From: Lachnospiraceae bacterium
GTDB taxonomy: Bacteria > Bacillota > Clostridia > Lachnospirales > Lachnospiraceae
Assembly: GCA_029067205.1 (NCBI GenBank)
Contig: JAIEEY010000455.1
Span: forward strand, 1-35,633
DNA length: 35,633 bases
Direction of reading: 5' to 3'
Shown here: piece after piece, positions 14,026 through 34,395 of the stretch
Numbering within the stretch: position 1 is the first letter of the stretch
How the letters are laid out: every line of letters begins with the position of its first letter
Position numbers and translations under genes: made by a program
Notes under the pieces: model-generated
The model's database searches: none
Seen by the model: the letters and a program-made list of their open reading frames with translations, nothing else
Told to the model about the DNA's origin: nothing

Positions 14026-14553
14026 TCATTTGAGTTTCTTAGAAAAGTATAACACCAGATCATCATCATTACAACAATCTGCATATTGTCCGCAAATCTC
14101 ATCCTTGTACCAGACTCCCGTACCGTCTGGAATATATCCACGCTTTACATACATTCTCTGCGCACTTCCGTATCCGGTATGAAGACCGACACCGAGACAG
14201 ACTATATCTGAGTACTCTGATGCGATCTGCTCAGCCACATCCATCAGCCTGCTGCCAATCCCCTTTTTCCGATATTTCTCCAACACTCCAAAATCAACGA
14301 TTTCAGGATATCCCTGATTTGCAAATGCTCCCCACTTAGAATCGAGATATACATTGATATATCCTGCTATCTTACCATGGTATTCAGCAGTCAGAGCTGC
14401 CGACTTTCCCTCGCTCTGGTCCCGAAGCCTCATTTCATACTTTTCCACACTGGCATCCCAGCCCTGTGCAATCTCCTCCTCGGTGATCATCTGCGCATCA
14501 CTCTGCTGCATATCACGTATTAAGATGTTATTTTTATCATAATAAATTTTCAT
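14026..14553 (-). CDS. GNAT family N-acetyltransferase
   Basis: A 175-aa protein with a GNAT fold. The acetyl-CoA binding motif A reads VDFGVLEKYRKKGIGSRLMD at about residues 86-106 (core R/Q-x-x-G-x-G/A as RKKGIG), followed by the family-typical late GYGSAQRMYVKRGYIPDGTG. The substrate is unknown. GGAGGG lies 7 nt before the ATG, and the ATG overlaps the rsgA stop in an ATGA, so the two are translationally coupled. Its pairing with a ribosome-assembly GTPase recalls ribosomal-protein acetylation, but that is only a guess. Confidence 0.88.
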   Translation of the reverse strand: MKIYYDKNNILIRDMQQSDAQMITEEEIAQGWDASVEKYEMRLRDQSEGKSAALTAEYHGKIAGYINVYLDSKWGAFANQGYPEIVDFGVLEKYRKKGIGSRLMDVAEQIASEYSDIVCLGVGLHTGYGSAQRMYVKRGYIPDGTGVWYKDEICGQYADCCNDDDLVLYFSKKLK

Positions 14554-15563
14554 TGACGCCCTCCTTCAATTCTCCGTCTTTTTGATTTCTCCATTTTCCT
14601 CATAAGCACCTGCTGCCTTGTCCTGGCATATGCCTCTTCTTTTTGCAGGCCCAGATACGTTTTCCAATGCCTTTGGTCAAGTGTTCCGTCCTCCAGGGCT
14701 CTTTTGACGGCGCACCCTGGCTCTGTCTGGTGCTGGCAGTCCGAAAATCTGCACTGTAATACCAGCTCCTCAATGTCCTCAAAAGTAAGTTCCACTCCGT
14801 CTGTGCCCTCACCCAGGATCAGCTTTCGTATACCTGGTGTATCAATGATTCTGCCACCACCTTTTATGACGCTTTTATCGGGGAGTGTAATCTGGTCTGG
14901 AATATCAAACATCTGCTTATACGTTGTCGTATGACGTCCCTGTGCATCTGACTCCCTGATACTGCCTGTCTGCATCTGCTCTTCACCCATCAGGATATTT
15001 ACAAAAGAAGATTTTCCAACTCCCGAAGATCCGAGCAGTACAATGGTATGTCCATTCGTAAAATATTTTTCTAACTGCAAGAACCCTTCCCCGGTATACG
15101 AACTTACACAGTATATATCGACGCCAGGCGCCAGAGTATTTACCTGCGCTAATACCTGTTCCCGATCTTCCATTAGATCGGATTTGGTCAGCAATATAAC
15201 AGGTGTTCCTCCACTCTGCCATGCGACTGTCAGATACCGTTCTAACTTTGACGGATGAAAATCCTTATTCAACGACATTGTGATAAAAACATAGTCAAAA
15301 TTGGCTGCTACCGCCTGATCAGGCAGTCCTTGTGTTGCGTTTAAGCGCATAAACACTGATTTTCGCTCCATGACCTTGAGAATCGTGCTGTCACCGTCCG
15401 CATTCCAAAGCACTTCAACCTGGTCGCCGACAGTCGGGAACATTACGATTTCCCCACTGTTGTAAAAAGCTGCTGTCTTTAATCTTCCATATAAAATTTC
15501 TGTACCAAAACTCAATTCATAGCGGTCCCTGTGCACCGCCGTAACAATCGCTATATTTTCCAT
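14550..15563 (-). CDS. rsgA: Ribosome small subunit-dependent GTPase A
   Basis: A 337-aa circularly permuted GTPase. An N-terminal OB-like domain (1-80) is followed by G4 TKSD (126-129), then G1 GSSGVGKSS (178-186), then G3 DTPG (241-244). The C-terminal zinc finger has C271, C276, H278 and C284, and the tail is basic. RsgA (YjeQ/YloQ) acts in late 30S maturation. AGAGGAAAAG precedes the ATG. Upstream is a leader with its own promoter, a 23-codon ORF and a strong terminator, so expression is probably attenuated. The N-terminal half differs from housekeeping copies in length and may mark a second paralogue. Confidence 0.92.
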   Translation of the reverse strand: MENIAIVTAVHRDRYELSFGTEILYGRLKTAAFYNSGEIVMFPTVGDQVEVLWNADGDSTILKVMERKSVFMRLNATQGLPDQAVAANFDYVFITMSLNKDFHPSKLERYLTVAWQSGGTPVILLTKSDLMEDREQVLAQVNTLAPGVDIYCVSSYTGEGFLQLEKYFTNGHTIVLLGSSGVGKSSFVNILMGEEQMQTGSIRESDAQGRHTTTYKQMFDIPDQITLPDKSVIKGGGRIIDTPGIRKLILGEGTDGVELTFEDIEELVLQCRFSDCQHQTEPGCAVKRALEDGTLDQRHWKTYLGLQKEEAYARTRQQVLMRKMEKSKRRRIEGGRQ

Positions 15564-18412: not shown

Positions 18413-20401
18413 TTATGTACGCTTTTTTAACTGGAATTGTACAATCGTATCCATTAACGCCTGTGCACATGCTCCTAAATGCGATGAAATTTCAGAATTT
18501 TCCTTGGCACTCGCCGCATTATTTCCCACCATTTCACTAATTTTTCTTATACTTATGGAAATTTCATCCGCGGAATTTTTCTGTGTTTCAACAAAATTTA
18601 CGATTTCATCGACCATCTGTGTATTAGCAGCAGAAAACTCCGCACTGTCTGAAATTGTTTTATCTGTCTTTGCAACTAGTTCCTTTCCTTTTGCAACGGA
18701 AGTCAGGGAATGCGCGATGACATCGCTGATCTTAGCACTTGACTGTGAACTGCTTGCTGAGAGTGTACCGATTTCTTCAGCCACCACTGCAAATCCCCTG
18801 CCGGCATCTCCAGCTCTTGCAGCTTCTATTGATGCATTTAATGCAAGCAGATTTGTCTGGCTTGCAATCGCGTTGATTTCTGTTACAAATCCGGCGATCT
18901 CATCATAACAGCCCGCTATCTCATCAATCGCCATAACCAGTTCATTCATTTCCGCACTTCCAACTGCCAGACGTTCATTTACATTATCTGTATTTACTTT
19001 AATGGAAACCGCAAATTCGGTTATTTTCTCCATATTATCCGTCAGACTCTTCATTTCCCTTGACGCATTCATAACAGATTCACTTTGCACCGCCGCCACA
19101 TTTGCGACATTTTCACTTGTTTCCGATAAGTTTTCCGAATAATGTAGCACTGTTGCTGCCTGTTCGCTTATTTCTATAAAGCTTTCATTCAGCACTTTTA
19201 TAATATCAATCAATGCGATCTTAATTTTTTCATACTCTCCCGTATACTCTCCTTCTACACTAAAGTTCAGATTCTTCTCTGAAATAGAAGTCACAGTATT
19301 TGTAATCTCCATAATATAATGCTGCAGCCCTTTCATTGTGTTGTTAAGCGCTACTGACAGTGCATTTACTTCCTGCGACTGCTCATCTACATGAAAAACA
19401 TAATCCAATTTACCGTCCGATATTTTACTCACATTTGCTGCCAATTCTTCCAGTGGTGAAAACATTGGATTAATGCCATTGATCAGCTGCCGCTTTGCCA
19501 GTTTCTCCAGCAAAATACCCAATATTATTGTCAGTATCATAATCAGGACAATCACCATGATGATCCATGTAAGAGATATAACTGCTACCACATTCCAGCC
19601 TGTTGTTTTGGCAATGCTGCTGACTGCAAATTTTAATCCGCCGCTGTAATCCCAAATCAGTTTTGCTGACAGCTCTTTCTCACAAACGCTTTTATATTTC
19701 CCACCTAAAGCCTCTGACACCGTTGTACTTTTTTCATTATTCAATGCAATATCTTTATCCGGATGTGTTAAAATGACGTCTTCCTTTGATGTTAAAAACA
19801 CATAGTTCCCGTCATCGTATGAACTCTCAATCAACGCAACCAGATTATCCATATACATATCTATTCCTGCCACGCCAAGTAGAGAACCGCCGCTGTATAT
19901 CGCTTTAGAGGCGGTAATACAAATATTTCCGGTCTGTTCATCCAGATATGGCTCGGTCACATATACCCCCTGCGTCTCTACTGCACCTACATACCATGCG
20001 CGTTCAGATACTACAAAATCAGCTTCCGGCAGCCATCCGCCTGACATATATGTCATAATTCCGTCCGAGTAGATGACATCGTCCTGCTTTACACAGACAT
20101 ATACTGCCGATATATCATCATACTGGTTTGCCAGTTCATCTATATACGCATAATAATCCGACTGTGCTATTCCGGAAGAAATCCCTGTCGCAACAGTATT
20201 GATAAATGCCATCTTTTCCGTCATAGCATTATCCACTTGTGAACAATATAGCTGTGCCTGCTTTCTATTATCTTTAATTGTATACGAAATAATAATAGCA
20301 AGTACCGTTGCTCCTGCTAACATGCACAGTCCGAAAATAATTCTCCTGATTGACTGGCTGGCCCTCTTGTTGACATTTGAACTAAGTTTTTGTAATTCCA
20401 T
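18413..20401 (-). CDS. Methyl-accepting chemotaxis protein, dCache sensor
   Basis: A 662-aa chemoreceptor. TM1 is at about 21-41, followed by an extracellular dCache domain (about 45-270), TM2 (271-298), HAMP (about 299-365) and the cytoplasmic signalling hairpin, whose tip reads [20 protein letters not shown] (514-533). In the sensor, R134, W136, Y137, Y152 and D181 (RAWY, EPY, GID) fit the dCache amino-acid-binding pattern, so an amino-acid-like ligand is plausible. GAGGAG lies 8 nt before the ATG at 20401; the earlier ATG at 20428 lacks a site. It lies 184 nt downstream of a BMP-type lipoprotein on the same strand. Confidence 0.93.
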
Positions 20402-20446
20402 TGTGCAGTCTCCTCGTCTGATTAGCAAAGATTTTTCTATTATTTT

Positions 20447-27232: not shown

Positions 27233-28420
27233 TTAAGCAAGCGCTTTCTCATAATCGGACACTAAGTCCAGTATTCTCTCTGCATATTCCGGATATTTTG
27301 CCATGATATCCTTGACCTCGTCCTGCGCCTCCTGCGCAGCCTTGGCGTTGTACTCCATCTGCTTTCTGAGCTTCTGCCGTCTGATGATGAGCCCATGTCT
27401 GATCTCCACCATTTCCTTGCTGTCGATCAGCGCCGCTGCCTGATGAAGCCAAACGTTCGGATCTGCAATATTGCAGTTGCGTAGAAGTTTGATCAGAGCT
27501 GCCTCGTTGAAATCCATATCCTGTTCCATCTGCTTCTCCTGCTCGCGATGGATATTCTCCTCGAGGTACTTGTCCCAAAGTTTCTTGAGTTCATTAGAGC
27601 TGTTGACATCGTATTTCACATACAGATATTCCAGCAGATTCGTGTTGTTCACATAGCGGATCTTCACAGTATTGTGCAATAAGACAAGCTTATTAATGCC
27701 TTTCTCAACCTTTACGAGTTCTCTCTGCGACTCATGAAATTTTACATACACAAAAGCAAGTGTCGATGCCGCGATCAGCACAGCAATCGCATATCCAAGA
27801 GAGACATCGAGATTCCACGCAGAGCCTATGATCGTGAGCATTAATATCAGAAGCAGCATGGAACCGACACACATGATCGTAATGCCTTTCATGTTGCCCA
27901 TCGCATTCTGAAGCTCATTCTTTCTATAATAATAGGCATGCCGCTCGCCATCAAGTCGCCCCATATCCTTTTTTACAAGTATCTGATAATCTTCTGCTTC
28001 CTTTAATTTCTTGTATCCTTCGGGCATATACTGCTCGATCCGTTCCATGCGAAGATAATCCTCTGGCTTCATGATACGGCGCTTTTTGTCAAGTTTCTCC
28101 CTGCTGTTCTCCAATTCAAGAATTTTTGAAGCGTATGTTTTTAACTGTTCCTTGACTTCATCGGGCTGCGCCTCGATTTCCTCCATATCCGTCAGATAGG
28201 AAGTCACTAAGTTATACTCCCCTCCAAGTGTGTCCAGTTCCTTGGATGCCTCTGTTATCTGCTCCATACATGCCTTGACATAATGCTCACGCTGTATCTT
28301 GTCATGCATGTCAATATTGTCGCGCTTTAGGCTCTCCTCCTCCCAGTCAGGTCTGTATACATTTTCTCCGTCGTCCGTCTGCCGATTAAAAAATCCCTTA
28401 ATCTTTCCTAATAATCCCAT
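27233..28420 (-). CDS. Membrane coiled-coil protein of the four-gene cluster
   Basis: A 395-aa protein of no recognised family. A charged, mostly helical N-terminal half with coiled-coil character (about residues 20-165) leads to two adjacent hydrophobic segments (about 180-200 and 207-227), then a second long helical, Glu/Lys/Gln-rich half (about 230-395). The two halves therefore probably lie on the same, cytosolic, side of the membrane. It starts 18 nt after the TPR gene and is the last gene of the cluster; purC follows. It is the only member with membrane anchors, so it may dock the others. Confidence 0.8.
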   Translation of the reverse strand: MGLLGKIKGFFNRQTDDGENVYRPDWEEESLKRDNIDMHDKIQREHYVKACMEQITEASKELDTLGGEYNLVTSYLTDMEEIEAQPDEVKEQLKTYASKILELENSREKLDKKRRIMKPEDYLRMERIEQYMPEGYKKLKEAEDYQILVKKDMGRLDGERHAYYYRKNELQNAMGNMKGITIMCVGSMLLLILMLTIIGSAWNLDVSLGYAIAVLIAASTLAFVYVKFHESQRELVKVEKGINKLVLLHNTVKIRYVNNTNLLEYLYVKYDVNSSNELKKLWDKYLEENIHREQEKQMEQDMDFNEAALIKLLRNCNIADPNVWLHQAAALIDSKEMVEIRHGLIIRRQKLRKQMEYNAKAAQEAQDEVKDIMAKYPEYAERILDLVSDYEKALA

Positions 28421-28438
28421 ACTTTAACCCCTTTCACC

Positions 28439-29272
28439 CTAATTCTTAGTCTGACGCTTGTAATCCTTCTTGAGCTGTCTTATGAGTGTCTGCGACTGCT
28501 GGCGGTACATTTCCATCTGTCCGCTTTCTTTGAGCTCTGCCAATTCTGTCACCAACTTTCTCTCCCTCGAAGCAAGCCATTTCTCATCTGTCTGTGCACA
28601 CATCTGTTCTACTTGCAGAAAATCCTCCTCCCAATTTGGATTCTCCCGCTTGAACGCACCATATGCATAGTCTGTGAGTGCCTTTTTGTTTGCAAGAATA
28701 TAAGCGCACCTTGTCTGTCTGTCAGGGTGCAGAAGATACGCTTCATAATACAAATCTGCGGCCTGTTTATATGCAAAATCCATGGCGTAAATCGATGCCA
28801 TATTATAATATAGAAGTGCTCTTCCTGCACTGTCCCTTGAGGGAATATATTCCACAAGCTCACTGTAAATAGCAAGTGCCTGACGGAATCTCCCCTGCTG
28901 GTATAGATACTCTGCCCGTTTCTTGTATTTCTCGGTGATCGTAAGACTTGATTGTTCTTTTAATATGCGGTCTATTTGCTTGACAGTACTGCTGTCATAC
29001 ATGCCTGTCCGCTCAAAGATCGTTGAGACAAAAGCGGCGACCGACACACGCTTTCTGACATACACATCAAGTTCGTCCGCAAGTTCTGTAAGTCCACACT
29101 CGTGGCGAATCCAGTTTACCAGATCTGCCGAGACAATCGAGTCATCCAGGAGATGTACCCTTTCCATAAAATAATAACATAACTCCTCTACAGAATACAA
29201 TGAAATGTCAGAAAATTTTATATAAAATGGATTTTTCGCGTAATTTCCTATACATAAACATACATTATTCAT
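28439..29272 (-). CDS. TPR-repeat protein of the four-gene cluster
   Basis: A 277-aa soluble protein. An N-terminal helical domain (1-110, NPFYIKFSDISLYSVEEL...) is followed by TPR-like helices at about residues 113-205 (YLYQQGRFRQALAIYSELVE, ALLYYNMASIYAMDFAYKQA, ADLYYEAYLLHPD). A Lys/Arg-rich helical tail ends the protein. It probably mediates protein contacts. GAGG lies 8 nt before the ATG. A perfect 11-bp hairpin precedes it in a 69-nt gap after the Hsp70-like gene. Confidence 0.82.
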   Translation of the reverse strand: MNNVCLCIGNYAKNPFYIKFSDISLYSVEELCYYFMERVHLLDDSIVSADLVNWIRHECGLTELADELDVYVRKRVSVAAFVSTIFERTGMYDSSTVKQIDRILKEQSSLTITEKYKKRAEYLYQQGRFRQALAIYSELVEYIPSRDSAGRALLYYNMASIYAMDFAYKQAADLYYEAYLLHPDRQTRCAYILANKKALTDYAYGAFKRENPNWEEDFLQVEQMCAQTDEKWLASRERKLVTELAELKESGQMEMYRQQSQTLIRQLKKDYKRQTKN

Positions 29273-29302
29273 TTACATAACCTCTAAACTCTGTCCCATG
29301 CT

Positions 29303-29330
29303 CTGTCATGAAAGAACCTTTTCATGACAG
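29303..29330. other. Perfect hairpin inside the four-gene cluster
   Basis: CTGTCATGAAA (29303-29313) and TTTCATGACAG (29320-29330) form an 11-bp stem with a 6-nt loop between the Hsp70-like and TPR genes. No U-tract follows in the direction of the genes, so it is more likely a processing or stability element than a full terminator. Confidence 0.65.
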
Positions 29331-29341
29331 AACCCTGTTTT

Positions 29342-30676
29342 TTATGTAATCGCCTCGAGTGGAAGACATTCCTTCCAAATCTGACCCGTAGACGGAAAAA
29401 ACTCCCCGAACCCCTTATCTGTGATCTCAATCTGTACTGCATTGGCATCTTCCATATAAAACCGAAGTTCCACGCGGTTTGTCTTATTGCCCCGCACCTT
29501 CAGTCCTTCGAGAGAGATCCTCGCCACCCGCGTCTTTCTTCCATCCACTGGAGATATATTGAGCGTAATCGTGTTGTTTTTTATGAGCATCACATCAAAG
29601 GTATTCTGCGCCTCATACCAGTTCGTACCTGCGTCAAGAATCGGATAGTACACCTCCGCCTGCCCCCTGTCACAGGTCATGCCGATATTGGCGCGAAGTT
29701 TATCCTCTGATAAATACACATAGGACGTAGACAAAGTCGAGGGATATACACGCTCCCGCGCGCCATAACAGGCTCCTTTGCTGAACAGATTGTTTCCCTG
29801 AAACACACGCCTTCCCCGGCACATGTACTTCAACGACTCCCGGCACCAGTCCTTCGAAAAGGAATCGCCCAATAGAAAAACGGACGTGATGACTCTCTGG
29901 TCACAGTTTTTCCGCACAATCTCAAGCAGCGCTGAATCAAGCTGCTTGAAAAACGCACCTTTGGTGGTCTCATTTTTATCTGACAGATCAGGTATTTTCA
30001 TCTGTGGATACTGCACGGTGTCTATGAAACATGCTATTGGGTTTGTCTTCCTGTTCATAGAGAGAAGATAGCTTTTGATGCCATCATTCTTATAATCATA
30101 CAAAAGCACATCGTGTATCCACATTTCCTGCGGTTGGTGAATGATATACTGGAAAAAACAGTCCTCATGACTCAGAAAATAGACTTCCATTTTCCGCTGA
30201 CCGATATGCTTTGATATATTTCTGAGCATTTCCATAATATCTGTATTGGTATCCTTCATCGTAAATGCTACTGCCGCAATATCTTCCGATACGATATATG
30301 CATACAGAATTGCAAGTGCTTTTTTTACAAATATCTCGAGCAGATACTCCGCAGACAAGGAATCCGCACCAACTTTGACACTGACATTGTTTTTTGCGAT
30401 CCGCAGCAGATCCTCTACAAGTACTCCCTGTCCTTCTTTTGCCGCTTTTAGAGCTTCCTTGCCGATCAGCCATGCAGACTCTCCCTCAACATCGTTTTTC
30501 CTGCACAGAAGTGTTGGGATATTGTACTGCTCCTCCCCCATCACCAGACTGACTGTATCGGGCATGCTCTGATTCTGCCTGCAGTAGCTGATCTGTGAAT
30601 AATCATTTCCAAAGTCAAAACCGACTACCACTTTATTCTTTTTTGTTATTTCGTCTAATGCCCTATCGATCAACAT
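29342..30676 (-). CDS. Hsp70/actin-like protein (DUF5716-like)
   Basis: A 444-aa protein with an Hsp70-type nucleotide-binding fold. Phosphate motif 1 is VGFDFGNDYSQIS (18-30), phosphate motif 2 is at 191-199 (LLYDYKNDG, where Hsp70 has DLGGG), and an adenosine motif is at 265-306 (SVFLLGDSFS...GACYGA). A C-terminal beta-rich domain (about 310-444, NTITLNISPVDGR) stands where Hsp70 has its substrate-binding beta domain. Motif 2 has lost two glycines, so hydrolysis is uncertain. I associate it with DUF5716-like families. GAGGGG lies 8 nt before the ATG. It follows the 1208-aa gene by 30 nt. Confidence 0.8.
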   Translation of the reverse strand: MLIDRALDEITKKNKVVVGFDFGNDYSQISYCRQNQSMPDTVSLVMGEEQYNIPTLLCRKNDVEGESAWLIGKEALKAAKEGQGVLVEDLLRIAKNNVSVKVGADSLSAEYLLEIFVKKALAILYAYIVSEDIAAVAFTMKDTNTDIMEMLRNISKHIGQRKMEVYFLSHEDCFFQYIIHQPQEMWIHDVLLYDYKNDGIKSYLLSMNRKTNPIACFIDTVQYPQMKIPDLSDKNETTKGAFFKQLDSALLEIVRKNCDQRVITSVFLLGDSFSKDWCRESLKYMCRGRRVFQGNNLFSKGACYGARERVYPSTLSTSYVYLSEDKLRANIGMTCDRGQAEVYYPILDAGTNWYEAQNTFDVMLIKNNTITLNISPVDGRKTRVARISLEGLKVRGNKTNRVELRFYMEDANAVQIEITDKGFGEFFPSTGQIWKECLPLEAIT

Positions 30677-30706
30677 TTTCCTTACCCCTCTTTCAGGGAG
30701 TCAGTA

Positions 30707-33700
30707 TTACAATACTTTAAACAGCTCCCTTACACAGAAATCCCGATATACATAGTCTTCTGTCAGCTGTTGTGCCGTCACCTCGTCATGAAGGCTGATG
30801 CTTAACAGGATATCATTCAATATATTAAACCTGTCATCTGCATCATATTGATGATTCCCTGATACAGATGCTTCTGACCTGCCAGACAATGTACTGCTCT
30901 GCGTCACGCGCTCCTGCATGATCTCCCCATTTACCAGACTGCTTTCCGTAACATAATACTGTATTGTTTCCCCGTGAAAGAGCTGGAACATGCTCACATG
31001 GATTCCCTCATACATTTCCTTCATTTCCCTGATTTCATAACACTCGTAATCTATATTTCCCGCTGTGTGCTCTTCCTGTTTATCATGATCGTCATCTAAA
31101 GAACCGTCATCAAACGCATAATGCAGATATACTTGTGTATGCGGCTGCGTCCTGTATTCGACAAACACACTGTTTTTGATATAATGCAGTTCTGGAACCA
31201 AATCCACAAGATTTGCATAGAAAGGAAAGTACACATCATCATTCAGAAGCTCCTGAATGATCTGTCTGACAGCATCTTCCGGCACTTCCGTGCTATTATG
31301 CATGTTTTCTGCCCAAAATTTTAAGAGGGCAAGCTCACATACTCTGTCTGTCAGCTCTCCCTGTGCATATTTGTGATACAACATATCAAAAATTTCCGGA
31401 CACAGAATCGCCTCATAGACAAAATACTCATAGGACATACCCATCAGAAGCCTGTTCACCAGCTCCCTGTCATGCGCTTCACACTGCGCATATGCAGTTA
31501 GCAGACGATCCTTATCAGGAATCGTAACACCTGTATATTCGATCTGCCTCAGGATTCGCTCCATGATCAATTTCGCATCAAGCTCCAAATCAACCGCAGA
31601 TTTCCACAATTTTCTGAGTTCTGATGACTTTCCGTCATAATTCATCATCAAATAACGCAGGATATTTTCATCGTATTTCATATGCTTGTAAATATAATGC
31701 GCCACATTTACAAGAAATTCATCATACTCGTAATCCTTGTTCACAATCCTCTTGCTGACAAGTCTTGCTACTGCCTTTGGCTCTACATCTGCCACGCCAT
31801 ACGACCGCAGCCAGTAATACGCCTTGTCAAACATTCCTCTCGAGATCAGATACTTGATAAATTCTGCACGCTCAGCAGCCTCCATCTCATCCGCCTCAGT
31901 ATCTTCCAGAAAGGCATCGAGCTCACCGATCATATCATTGTCATAGTAAAACCGAAGAAGCTTTGTACGGATTTCTTTCTTAAAACTCTCTACCACCTGC
32001 GGTGACTCTGCAAGGTTTTTATAGCGCTTTACATTGTCATGTGAAATCGTTATGTAATTCTTATCCACCTCACACAGATAGATGTCAAACCTAAGCCGCC
32101 CCTGCATATAACCGCTGATATAGCTCAGCTGCTTTTTGGGCTCCATGAGCCGCTTATTTTCATAACAAATACTCTTCGTAAACCGGTTTCCGTTCTCATC
32201 CTGCAGAAAAAGCTTGTACTCACTGCCGTAAATCGGTATCATACAGACACAGTTCACTACCGGATAAGAACTCTCCCCATTCACTTTCTCATGGATAACA
32301 ACAATACTTTTTACTTTCGGATTATCCACATAGATACGGTGCATGAAAAGCAGCGGTGTAAAAGCATATACAGTATCATCCATGATCATCTGCGGCGCCA
32401 GCATATTTTTGTATAGATATGCAAGGTTTTCATTGATATGCCCCAGCTTGATCTGGTCCACCACAAAACGCTCTATCGCAATGCGGTAGCTCTGTTCCAG
32501 ATCTGGGTACTTGTCCCTGTTCCTGATGATATATGCATACAAAAAAGCATTTAATTCATAATCCAGACTGCTCTGATATGCAAAATACATCAAAACCATC
32601 TTCGGAATCTCGATGCCTTCCTTGATATCTCCATACTTGTCAAGCTCAAGTGACATCATATAATACTCATACAGTCCTGTTACCCTCACGGAATGCTCCA
32701 CCCCAAGTGAATACCAAGGATAGTAATCTGTCCCTTTCTTATCACCCAGTATCAGAACATGGCAGATCGATGCCACTGTCTGCGGCGATTTGTAGGTACA
32801 GTATATCTCGCCCAATATTCTGAGCAGCAGAGCCGAATACTCCTGCTTGCGGGCAGCAAGATACTGCAGCTGCTCTATTAACTCTGGACGGAGCATCTTG
32901 CGTCTGGCTCCATGCCACAAAACATTTTCCTCAAACCTCTCTAGCTTTAACAGGAAAGTCGGATTGTCCTGCAGCAATAAAATTGCCTCACACAGCAGCA
33001 GCGGACTTGTACAGCCATTCTCAAACATTTCTTCCATAAACTGCCAGCGAAGCTCCCTGCTGCGCTGGAGATCTTCATTTAACTGCAGGACAAACCAGCC
33101 AAGTCTCCACTCCACCGGATTGTTGGCATAAATCGTCTCGATCTCATCACTGACATCCTTGACATAATCTTCCGCACAGTTGATCAGAGTTGTCAGATAC
33201 AGATAATAACAGTTCTGGAAAATATTACTTGGTTCCTTTGACAGTCTTTGCTCGAGCATGTCCAGATACCACTTCGCCTCATTGAAACGCTCCTTTGTGA
33301 TCAACAGCTGTACTCTGTACAGATTAAAGAGAATACTGTCTTCATCCAACTCAAGAAAAACCTTCAGTTCTTTTTCAAACTTACTAATCCATTGAGTCAT
33401 TGTCAGACGATTCAGTCTCATGTCAACATAACCGTTTGCCAAATTACATAACGCCTGTCTTTGTTTCTTGTTGTCCGTTCGTTTCTCTGGCTCCTCCTCT
33501 ATCAATATATCAAACGGAATCGTATACTCGTTACACGCATCAGAGAAAACAACTGCCCCACTGTTCACGCCATCATGCAGTTTTGAGGCATCGATATAAA
33601 TATTAAAATCACATTTGTTATTAATAAAATCCTCACTGTTCAAAAGCTGCCTGTCTGTGCTGATAAAGTCCCCGTTAACCCAAATATGGACACAGCTATA

Positions 33701-34333
33701 ACCCCAGCCGCTCTTTGTGATGACGACGCTCTTCACAATGCTGTCCTGAACATCTTCGAGCAAAAAACCTTCAATGTCAAAGCTGTATATAATAGGTGTC
33801 TTTTTGCTGACTTCGATCAAAAATTCCTCGACGTTCTGTTCATTTCCCTCATAACGCGATTGTCCTATGTAAGATAAGTATGGATTCTTGTCACTTTTCT
33901 GCAATATGGAAACGAAATTTCGGGAATAAAACAGGGCGACTGCCTCCTCCCAGTTTGTCTGTGCGAGGTTCGTAAAATGAAACAGGTTCCTGATATTTCC
34001 GAGAGAGCTCTGAAGCTGTGGCTTCTGCACAGTAATATTATAGGAGATCGCATATTCGCCGCGATTGCTGATGATTACAAACTCGCCTCTGATGCTGCCG
34101 CCCGTCTCGACAGATGTCCCATCACAGCAGTACTCGATCTGAGTCTCTTCCCCGCGAAATTCGACCTCGTACAGTCTCATCCGTGTATCAGATGAATAGA
34201 GCTTCCCCTCTGCGTACTTGTCAGCGGCATATATGGTAAAGCTGTCCTCGACAATTTCCCCTGGTTCTGTGCTAAACTCTATATTTTGACAAGAAAATTC
34301 GAGATATTCCGGCTTCTCCCTGTTGTCCCCCAT
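30707..34333 (-). CDS. Large solenoid-like protein (DUF5717-like)
   Basis: A 1208-aa protein, first gene of the cluster. There is no signal peptide and no membrane segment. An N-terminal beta-rich part (about 10-290) appears to hold two Ig-like domains. A helical, TPR-like solenoid follows (about 290-715), then a second beta domain (about 720-815), more helices (about 820-1080) and a beta-rich, Ser-rich C-terminus. I associate it with DUF5717, a Lachnospiraceae family without known function. AAGGAAG lies 7 nt before the ATG. Size and repeats suggest a scaffold for the Hsp70-like partner. Confidence 0.8.
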   Translation of the reverse strand: MGDNREKPEYLEFSCQNIEFSTEPGEIVEDSFTIYAADKYAEGKLYSSDTRMRLYEVEFRGEETQIEYCCDGTSVETGGSIRGEFVIISNRGEYAISYNITVQKPQLQSSLGNIRNLFHFTNLAQTNWEEAVALFYSRNFVSILQKSDKNPYLSYIGQSRYEGNEQNVEEFLIEVSKKTPIIYSFDIEGFLLEDVQDSIVKSVVITKSGWGYSCVHIWVNGDFISTDRQLLNSEDFINNKCDFNIYIDASKLHDGVNSGAVVFSDACNEYTIPFDILIEEEPEKRTDNKKQRQALCNLANGYVDMRLNRLTMTQWISKFEKELKVFLELDEDSILFNLYRVQLLITKERFNEAKWYLDMLEQRLSKEPSNIFQNCYYLYLTTLINCAEDYVKDVSDEIETIYANNPVEWRLGWFVLQLNEDLQRSRELRWQFMEEMFENGCTSPLLLCEAILLLQDNPTFLLKLERFEENVLWHGARRKMLRPELIEQLQYLAARKQEYSALLLRILGEIYCTYKSPQTVASICHVLILGDKKGTDYYPWYSLGVEHSVRVTGLYEYYMMSLELDKYGDIKEGIEIPKMVLMYFAYQSSLDYELNAFLYAYIIRNRDKYPDLEQSYRIAIERFVVDQIKLGHINENLAYLYKNMLAPQMIMDDTVYAFTPLLFMHRIYVDNPKVKSIVVIHEKVNGESSYPVVNCVCMIPIYGSEYKLFLQDENGNRFTKSICYENKRLMEPKKQLSYISGYMQGRLRFDIYLCEVDKNYITISHDNVKRYKNLAESPQVVESFKKEIRTKLLRFYYDNDMIGELDAFLEDTEADEMEAAERAEFIKYLISRGMFDKAYYWLRSYGVADVEPKAVARLVSKRIVNKDYEYDEFLVNVAHYIYKHMKYDENILRYLMMNYDGKSSELRKLWKSAVDLELDAKLIMERILRQIEYTGVTIPDKDRLLTAYAQCEAHDRELVNRLLMGMSYEYFVYEAILCPEIFDMLYHKYAQGELTDRVCELALLKFWAENMHNSTEVPEDAVRQIIQELLNDDVYFPFYANLVDLVPELHYIKNSVFVEYRTQPHTQVYLHYAFDDGSLDDDHDKQEEHTAGNIDYECYEIREMKEMYEGIHVSMFQLFHGETIQYYVTESSLVNGEIMQERVTQSSTLSGRSEASVSGNHQYDADDRFNILNDILLSISLHDEVTAQQLTEDYVYRDFCVRELFKVL

Positions 34334-34365: not shown

Positions 34366-34395
34366 AGTATACCCTATAATATGACATTATGTAAA
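34366..34395 (-). promoter_or_regulatory. Promoter of the four-gene cluster
   Basis: On the minus strand TTTACA (34390-34395) and TATACT (34366-34371) are 18 nt apart, directly after the rpe terminator and about 30 nt before the 1208-aa gene. Confidence 0.6.

Follow-up and report, generated by a model that had tools for sequence, protein, structure and literature searches.

Hsp70 chaperones share the fold of their nucleotide-binding domain (NBD) with actin, and subdomain IIB of that domain is a main contact of Hsp70 exchange factors. In the yeast ribosome-associated complex, Ssz1 acts as a constant docking or holding subunit. Here, we analyzed a cluster of four genes on a contig of 35,633 nucleotides (JAIEEY010000455.1, assembly GCA_029067205.1), called the window and always meant at its full length, from a bacterium of the Lachnospiraceae, a family common in the human gut. 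Numbered 1 to 4 in gene order, the genes encode a DUF5717 protein, a DUF5716 protein, a TPR protein, and a membrane hairpin protein, and we found that they form a pseudo-Hsp70 gene set that is shared across the family and is a reduced relative of a multi-Hsp70 locus.

Passages of Kaur et al. (2020, eLife, PMC7159879) describe GAP1-N2 GTPase systems with HSP70, GrpE, and FNIII-DnaJ or FNIII-TPR proteins, and parts of another report (PMC9239167) tie a cyanobacterial DnaK1-DnaJ3-GrpE system to type IV pilus motility. As described in those parts, the latter is comparable to our locus in being a dedicated Hsp70 system linked to motility but differs in having a J protein and in its connection to type IV pili, not flagella. 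The Hsp70s of Myxococcus are treated in a separate study (PMC8265645), and the main text of a survey of DnaK paralogues (PMC11019930) contains no occurrence of "Clostridi" or "Lachnospir." Pfam lists DUF5717_N/DUF5717 and DUF5716_C, to which genes 1 and 2 belong, as families of unknown function. In the open literature searched, with subscription papers and preprints outside, no title concerned the locus, and DUF5716 appeared once, in a paper unrelated by its title.

Gene 2 and the conserved core

The Pfam scan placed gene 2 in DUF5716_C above the curated cut-off (E = 1.5e-103, 346 bits) and gene 1 in DUF5717, the two families whose resemblance had been noted in the original prediction, a reading of the DNA letters that took the cluster for a membrane-docked chaperone-like or cytoskeletal complex. 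Gene 2 shares the NBD fold and the beta part of the substrate-binding domain (SBD-beta) with Hsp70/DnaK but had no match to the Hsp70 family PF00012 in the same scan. A DnaK profile matched its NBD and, in a second, weak segment, aligned to the SBD-beta of DnaK. In the predicted structure, the NBD fold is actin-like, and VIA aligned 275–293 residues at 3.6–3.9 Å to the NBDs of Ssz1 and DnaK. The SBD-beta strands occupy residues 329–439, and alignments to lid-less Hsp70s reach about residue 439; there, the last beta strand of the 444-residue protein ends, leaving no alpha-helical lid.

The catalytic residues have changed as well. Among the 141 DUF5716 rows, equivalents of T13, K71, E175, T204, and D206, the catalytic set in Hsc70 numbering, were kept in 0, 11, 1, 10, and 3, in comparison with 19, 18, 19, 19, and 19 of the 19 rows of Hsp70-A, a protein of the related locus in other families of the order. 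The columns of subdomain IIB were empty in all 141 rows, the corresponding stretch measuring 27–46 aa in DUF5716 and 102–142 aa in Hsp70-A, Hsp70-B, and Hsp70-C of that locus. Judged from sequence and model, gene 2 is a degenerate Hsp70 consisting of NBD and SBD-beta, with changed catalytic residues, subdomain IIB deleted, and no lid. Its earlier description as Hsp70-like and chaperone-like was correct by descent, and relatives of the locus encode a GrpE-like protein and Hsp70s whose motifs are intact.

As the ATPase chemistry, subdomain IIB, and the lid have been lost, gene 2 should not cycle. An active ATP-driven chaperone, in which gene 2 would hydrolyze ATP with the general DnaJ and GrpE, seems improbable to us: the actin-like fold is retained, as are the phosphate-1 aspartate in 129 and the D199 equivalent in 91 of the 141 rows, but the near-absence of the catalytic set and the missing subdomain argue against it. 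Ssz1 likewise has neither lid nor catalysis. Its complex differs from the bacterial gene set described here, in which a scaffold and a TPR protein accompany the pseudo-Hsp70 and no J-domain partner was seen: the Pfam matches of the four window proteins and of the scanned cluster proteins from other families, where not every gene was scanned, included no J domain.

Throughout, family means the Lachnospiraceae, and the order and class of the genome samples were taken accordingly. Among the 291 genomes of the class sample, DUF5716_C was present in 10, which are the family members of that sample, and DUF5717_N in the same 10, with one additional match below the cut-off; in the 281 genomes from outside the family, neither DUF5716 nor DUF5717 was found above the cut-off. 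Within the family, DUF5716 was present in 195 of 200 genomes, as a single copy in 193 and as two copies in two. Three of the five genomes without it had pieces of DUF5717 and two (G318 and G380) had neither (19 of the 200 checked), while G486, 70% complete, had DUF5716 and no DUF5717 match.

The original prediction had stated beforehand that linkage of the genes should be conserved. All 61 regions (60 fetched regions and the window, chosen by the presence of DUF5716 and biased to high scores) had genes 1, 2, and 3 in unchanged order and on a single strand, with gaps mostly below 30 nt or short overlaps, a linkage far beyond chance. One of 141 loci (L093) has genes 2 and 3 naturally fused into a single 709-aa protein, each half covering nearly the full profile. 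Gene 4 followed gene 3 in 24 of the 61 regions. In the 80 nearest named loci, most of them labeled Lachnospiraceae and some Butyrivibrio, Roseburia, Acetatifactor, or otherwise, genes 1, 2, 3, and 4 were present in 79, 80, 80, and 79; gene 1 is missing at a contig start in L156, and gene 4 is missing in L204 despite about 2.6 kb past gene 3. The flanks varied over the 61 regions, with genes that we presume to be aminotransferase-like (by eye HisC/CobD-like) in 28, valS-like in 16, and purF-like in 16, and the conserved thing is thus the gene set itself. In L095 (genome G477), an extra 270-aa gene lies between genes 1 and 2 (L095:10929–11741).

Gene 1 matched DUF5717_N (E = 1.5e-275, 917 bits) and DUF5717 (E = 2.8e-69, 234 bits) above the curated cut-offs. 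Its AlphaFold2 model (residues 9–1208; mean pLDDT 85.3, pTM 0.55) contains two immunoglobulin-like beta domains of the ASH/PapD type, at about model residues 1–95 and 172–270, followed by a TPR-like helical solenoid, a small inner beta domain, and a C-terminal beta domain. In Foldseek and VIA, residues 1–270 matched HYDIN/CEP192/PapD-type and other beta-sandwich domains and the solenoid matched TPR proteins; a profile search of solved structures gave weak matches only (best E = 0.072). Class-wide, the solenoid profile found only short, weak matches outside the order (43 bits at best, the frames being about 320 aa long).

Gene 3 has a short array of TPRs besides an N-terminal domain of roughly 100 aa. 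All its TPR matches in Pfam were below the cut-off (best 1.7e-5), although the model shows helical hairpins and the homologue in L291 has strong TPR matches. A tethered model of genes 2 and 3, computed from 70 aligned rows of which 10 were tethered pairs and with the arrangement judged from pTM, reached a pTM of 0.76 and a mean pLDDT of 90.3. By our own estimate from the larger part alone, a pTM of about 0.6 would be expected for unarranged halves, and the difference suggests an interface between the two proteins. As the Hsp70 half fills the VIA and Foldseek lists, these were uninformative on the TPR half.

The longer multi-Hsp70 locus of the order

Profiles built from family sequences uncovered longer relatives of the locus outside the family. 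In the order sample, the DUF5717 profile matched 50 of 116 genomes, 11 from the family and 39 of the 105 others. Most of the first 20 regions fetched from other families divide DUF5717 between two neighboring genes, one encoding a beta protein (about 400 aa) and the other a solenoid (about 900 aa); L234, L237, and L248 have the two parts fused. Downstream follow, in order, genes for Hsp70-A, a GrpE-like protein, Hsp70-B, Hsp70-C, Hsp70-D, and a TPR protein, to which the gene 3 profile matches. Hsp70-A, Hsp70-B, Hsp70-C, and Hsp70-D measure about 559, 525, 546, and 692 aa, the GrpE-like protein 279–645 aa, and the TPR protein about 387 aa.

In 16 of 24 genomes, the order is complete, beginning with the beta part, whether split or fused, and ending with the TPR gene. 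Two or three of these 16 have small inserted genes, and in G489 (L230/L275), Hsp70-D and the TPR protein are each read in two frames, so these genes may be decaying or mis-assembled. The beta part lies on another contig in G531 and G587; the clusters of G500, G518, G490, and G523 are truncated where the contig or fetched region stops; and that of G515 is scattered, with the TPR gene not seen. G553 (L240/L289) has the beta and solenoid parts, Hsp70-A, a GrpE-like protein of 312 aa, and Hsp70-B, followed by other genes, and is possibly an intermediate of reduction. A gene 4 homologue was seen with the longer locus in 4 of the 24 genomes, whose fetched regions did not all reach far enough downstream, and none was found in two additional stretches checked. 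In several other families, a protein of 330–480 aa with a hydrophobic N-terminal stretch (by eye) and no clear Pfam family precedes the beta gene (for example L246:7196–8644, L235:6748–7743, and L242:10904–12256); it might be a membrane anchor replacing gene 4.

The Hsp70s of the longer locus differ in how much of the chaperone they retain. The tested Hsp70-A, Hsp70-C, and Hsp70-D proteins are clear members of the Hsp70 family, with HSP70 matches in Pfam, and Hsp70-D carries a vWA domain in the lid position (VWA_4, 2.7e-10). GrpE (PF01025) was found in three of the four proteins tested (5.4e-12, 6.5e-13, and 1.4e-14) and not in that of L249. The catalytic set is kept in Hsp70-A (19 rows, with one R for K71) and Hsp70-D (17 rows), whereas Hsp70-C has lost K71 in 13 of 13 rows (Y in 10) and Hsp70-B keeps T13 in 5 of 16 rows, has lost nearly all other catalytic residues, and retains IIB. 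The Hsp70-B protein of L231 is a bridge, matching both DUF5716_C (1.8e-25) and HSP70 (1.9e-16). Phylogenetically, 15 DUF5716 rows formed one group, with the Hsp70-B of L230 as sister and two more Hsp70-B rows beside it; as the support of 99–100 comes from an unrooted tree inferred with a quick method, for which the program warned of long branches including that of L230 Hsp70-B, we use only the nearness of DUF5716 to Hsp70-B.

Hsp70-A, Hsp70-C, and Hsp70-D also have secondary matches to MreB_Mbl, which, with the fold common to Hsp70 and actin, might point to a cytoskeletal, actin-like filament anchored in the membrane. We consider this scarcely credible, as gene 2 has an SBD-beta-like domain and stands beside Hsp70-B (in a tree containing no MreB or FtsA) and the residues needed for nucleotide-driven polymerization are lost; the cytoskeletal part of the earlier interpretation found no support.

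With its profile, Hsp70-A was not found in any of the 12 family genomes searched: the best matches, of 155–198 bits, were to DnaK-sized frames (620–641 aa), in comparison with 913–1099 bits in three other-family genomes. In the family, a GrpE-like gene was looked for at the locus only. Seen against the longer locus of other families, the window contains a reduced set without the ATP-driven Hsp70s or the exchange factor. The simplest reading is that the family lost Hsp70-A, GrpE, Hsp70-C, and Hsp70-D and kept the scaffold, the pseudo-Hsp70, the TPR protein, and, in part, the membrane protein; the loss of IIB accompanies the loss of the GrpE-like gene from the locus. With an unrooted tree, the reverse course, an expansion in other families, is possible, but L230, with the nearest Hsp70-B, has the long form. 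Apart from the locus, extra Hsp70-like proteins of 563–584 aa (L300 and L301 in the window genome and L302 in G335) grouped with DnaK, and G438 and G473 had two further weak Hsp70-like matches, which are outside the tree.

In the parts of Kaur et al. (PMC7159879) that describe them, the GAP1-N2 systems have HSP70, GrpE, a second HSP70 without a peptide-binding domain, TPR, and beta-domain proteins in common with our loci, which differ in having no GTPase inside the cluster, four Hsp70s, and a family-wide core in place of a patchy distribution. The similar parts, which include HSP70, GrpE, a further degenerate HSP70, TPR, vWA, and beta-sandwich domains, would fit a conflict or defense system of this GTPase-centered kind, but we judge it very improbable. 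Almost all family genomes carry the gene set, 193 of these 195 as a single copy, and PADLOC gave no convincing match (best E = 0.015 and 0.02). The tightly packed clusters leave no room for an extra gene between their members and contained no GAP1-type GTPase, the flanks of the other-family loci lying outside the GTPase annotation. Among the 20 other window proteins scanned, one GTPase was named, RsgA at 14550–15563. NCBIfam gave nothing useful.

Gene 4 and flagella

Gene 4 had no match to a Pfam family better than E = 0.97, and a profile search of solved structures gave weak matches only (best E = 0.36). The protein has hydrophobic stretches at residues 175–208 and 204–229, and among 103 homologues (window included), at least two such stretches were found in 94 and one in nine. 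Gene 4 was present in 91 of the 200 family genomes, excluding three matches of 18–21 bits (G333, G348, and G279), and flagellin in 110. Both occurred in 89 genomes, gene 4 only in two, flagellin only in 21, and neither in 88; flagellin was thus found in 89 of 91 genomes with gene 4 and in 21 of 109 without (Fisher p = 2.7e-33, ignoring kinship). The two genomes with gene 4 only are 86% complete and 6% contaminated (G418) and 72% complete (G440).

To control for kinship, we used a FastTree phylogeny of DUF5717 from 139 genomes, omitting G299 and G328, which had no long enough protein in the fetched stretch. In 12 well-supported independent pairs differing in gene 4, flagellin differed in the same way in 9.9 on average and in the opposite way in none (sign test, median p = 0.002). 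A second tree, inferred with another method after leaving out ten genomes (mostly long branches) and two outgroup rows, gave 10 pairs, 7.3 the same way and none opposite (median p = 0.016, range 0.004–0.06). Two large clades have no gene 4 at all, and some of their members keep flagellin. Within the family, gene 4 is a putative optional membrane subunit that follows flagella. The earlier description of the complex as membrane-docked stands for gene 4 but cannot be extended to the gene set at large, the gene being found in just 91 of the 200 genomes and tracking flagella.

DUF5716 is kept in 88 of the 90 flagellin-less family genomes, implying that core genes 1–3 serve another duty, and we rejected their dependence on the flagellum. 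A dedicated flagellar assembly or export chaperone system, in which all four genes serve flagella, is correspondingly unlikely in our view. The genomes with gene 4 are nearly a subset of the flagellin-positive ones, and in the order sample, flagellin was found in 46 of 50 genomes with the DUF5717 locus and in 42 of 66 without (one of the 42, G533, below the family cut-off), an excess that ignores kinship; against this stands the independence of genes 1–3.

A link to sporulation was rejected: 14 of the 50 locus-positive order genomes have no SpoIVA, which was present in 36 of 50 genomes with the locus and 54 of 66 without. The window genome had 12 flagellin matches, and window positions 18413–20428 hold a gene for a methyl-accepting chemotaxis protein, both in keeping with a motile host.

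Proposed role and surroundings of the locus

Our preferred reading, to which we give slightly better than even chances, is that of an Hsp70-type binding complex that is scaffolded, does not cycle, and is tethered to the membrane in flagellated species. The four genes would then encode the remaining core of a dedicated Hsp70-type machine. Gene 1, with its immunoglobulin-like domains and solenoid, would be the scaffold, and gene 2 would be a constant docking or holding subunit for a putative client, in the manner of Ssz1. With its N-terminal domain and TPR, gene 3 would clamp gene 2. In genomes that have it, gene 4 would anchor the complex in the membrane by means of a transmembrane hairpin bearing two helical arms, a role linked to flagellated cells. 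More tentatively, and doubtful as it is, a machine of four tandem Hsp70s, with one vWA-ended member and its own GrpE, might have been converted on the Lachnospiraceae stem into an ATP-independent, scaffolded pseudo-Hsp70 complex that spread to nearly all of the family and whose hairpin subunit would couple it to the flagellar or chemosensory apparatus in motile species.

Several points weigh against the binding-complex reading. The 24-residue stretch joining the two halves of the tethered model is not translated that way in the window strain, and gene 2 may bind ATP without hydrolyzing it. The structural scores of Ssz1 and DnaK were tied, so the analogy with Ssz1 rests on the missing lid and catalysis, not on fold ranking. 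Of the 110 flagellin-positive family genomes, 21 have no gene 4, which is thus dispensable for flagella. Furthermore, the link between gene 4 and flagellin was not seen in other families, where flagellin was found in 23 of 24 genomes and gene 4 in four, the sole flagellin-less genome (G510) being among the four.

The open reading frames reproduced exactly the four minus-strand genes, their lengths, and the gaps of 30, 69, and 18 nt of the original prediction (Table 1). The single promoter proposed there is compatible with the sequence but not more than that: a promoter-like match was found some 33 nt ahead of gene 1, in a region with 31 such sites against a mean of 19 in shuffles. The inverted repeat between genes 2 and 3 is possibly an mRNA processing or attenuation element.

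Table 1. Features of the locus in the window
Feature	Coordinates	Strand	Basis
Gene 1, DUF5717, 1208 aa	30707..34333	-	Pfam, AlphaFold2 model, Foldseek/VIA
Gene 2, DUF5716, 444 aa, pseudo-Hsp70	29342..30676	-	NBD without subdomain IIB and SBD-beta, without alpha lid
Gene 3, TPR protein, 277 aa	28439..29272	-	Sub-cutoff TPR matches, model hairpins, L291 homologue, L093 fusion
Gene 4, 395 aa, putative optional subunit with membrane hairpin and helical arms	27233..28420	-	Hydrophobic stretches, flagellin co-distribution
Promoter-like site before gene 1	34366..34395	-	Consensus match 10/12; not evidence of function
Inverted repeat of 13 pairs, gene 2–gene 3 gap	29302..29331		Terminator-like scan

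Downstream of the locus are purine genes for SAICAR synthetase, a purF-like amidotransferase, and adenylosuccinate lyase and synthetase; a ribulose-phosphate 3-epimerase-like gene lies upstream. In many genomes, of the family and of other families, the upstream neighbor of the locus is a divergently oriented gene of about 366 aa that resembles an aminotransferase (by eye HisC/CobD-like; for example L234, L236, and L291). Proteins of about 460–470 aa with a start resembling a zinc ribbon (by eye) and possible TPRs are encoded near the locus in the family and in other families (L277:27–1433, L278:13060–14475, and L103:4458–5828). As a whole, the earlier interpretation is partly supported, its parts list having overlooked the degeneracy of gene 2 and its missing IIB, the N-terminal immunoglobulin-like domains of gene 1, and the reduction from a larger locus.

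In Pfam, this core locus, shared family-wide by the Lachnospiraceae, is represented by two domains of unknown function with unnamed neighbors; its connection to a chaperone system with several Hsp70s comes from the longer clusters of the order. The association of gene 4 with flagellin provides a concrete, testable phenotype. The ladder from Hsp70-A and Hsp70-D with intact motifs, through the degenerate Hsp70-B that keeps IIB, to the degenerate DUF5716 that has lost it shows how an Hsp70 may become a structural subunit.

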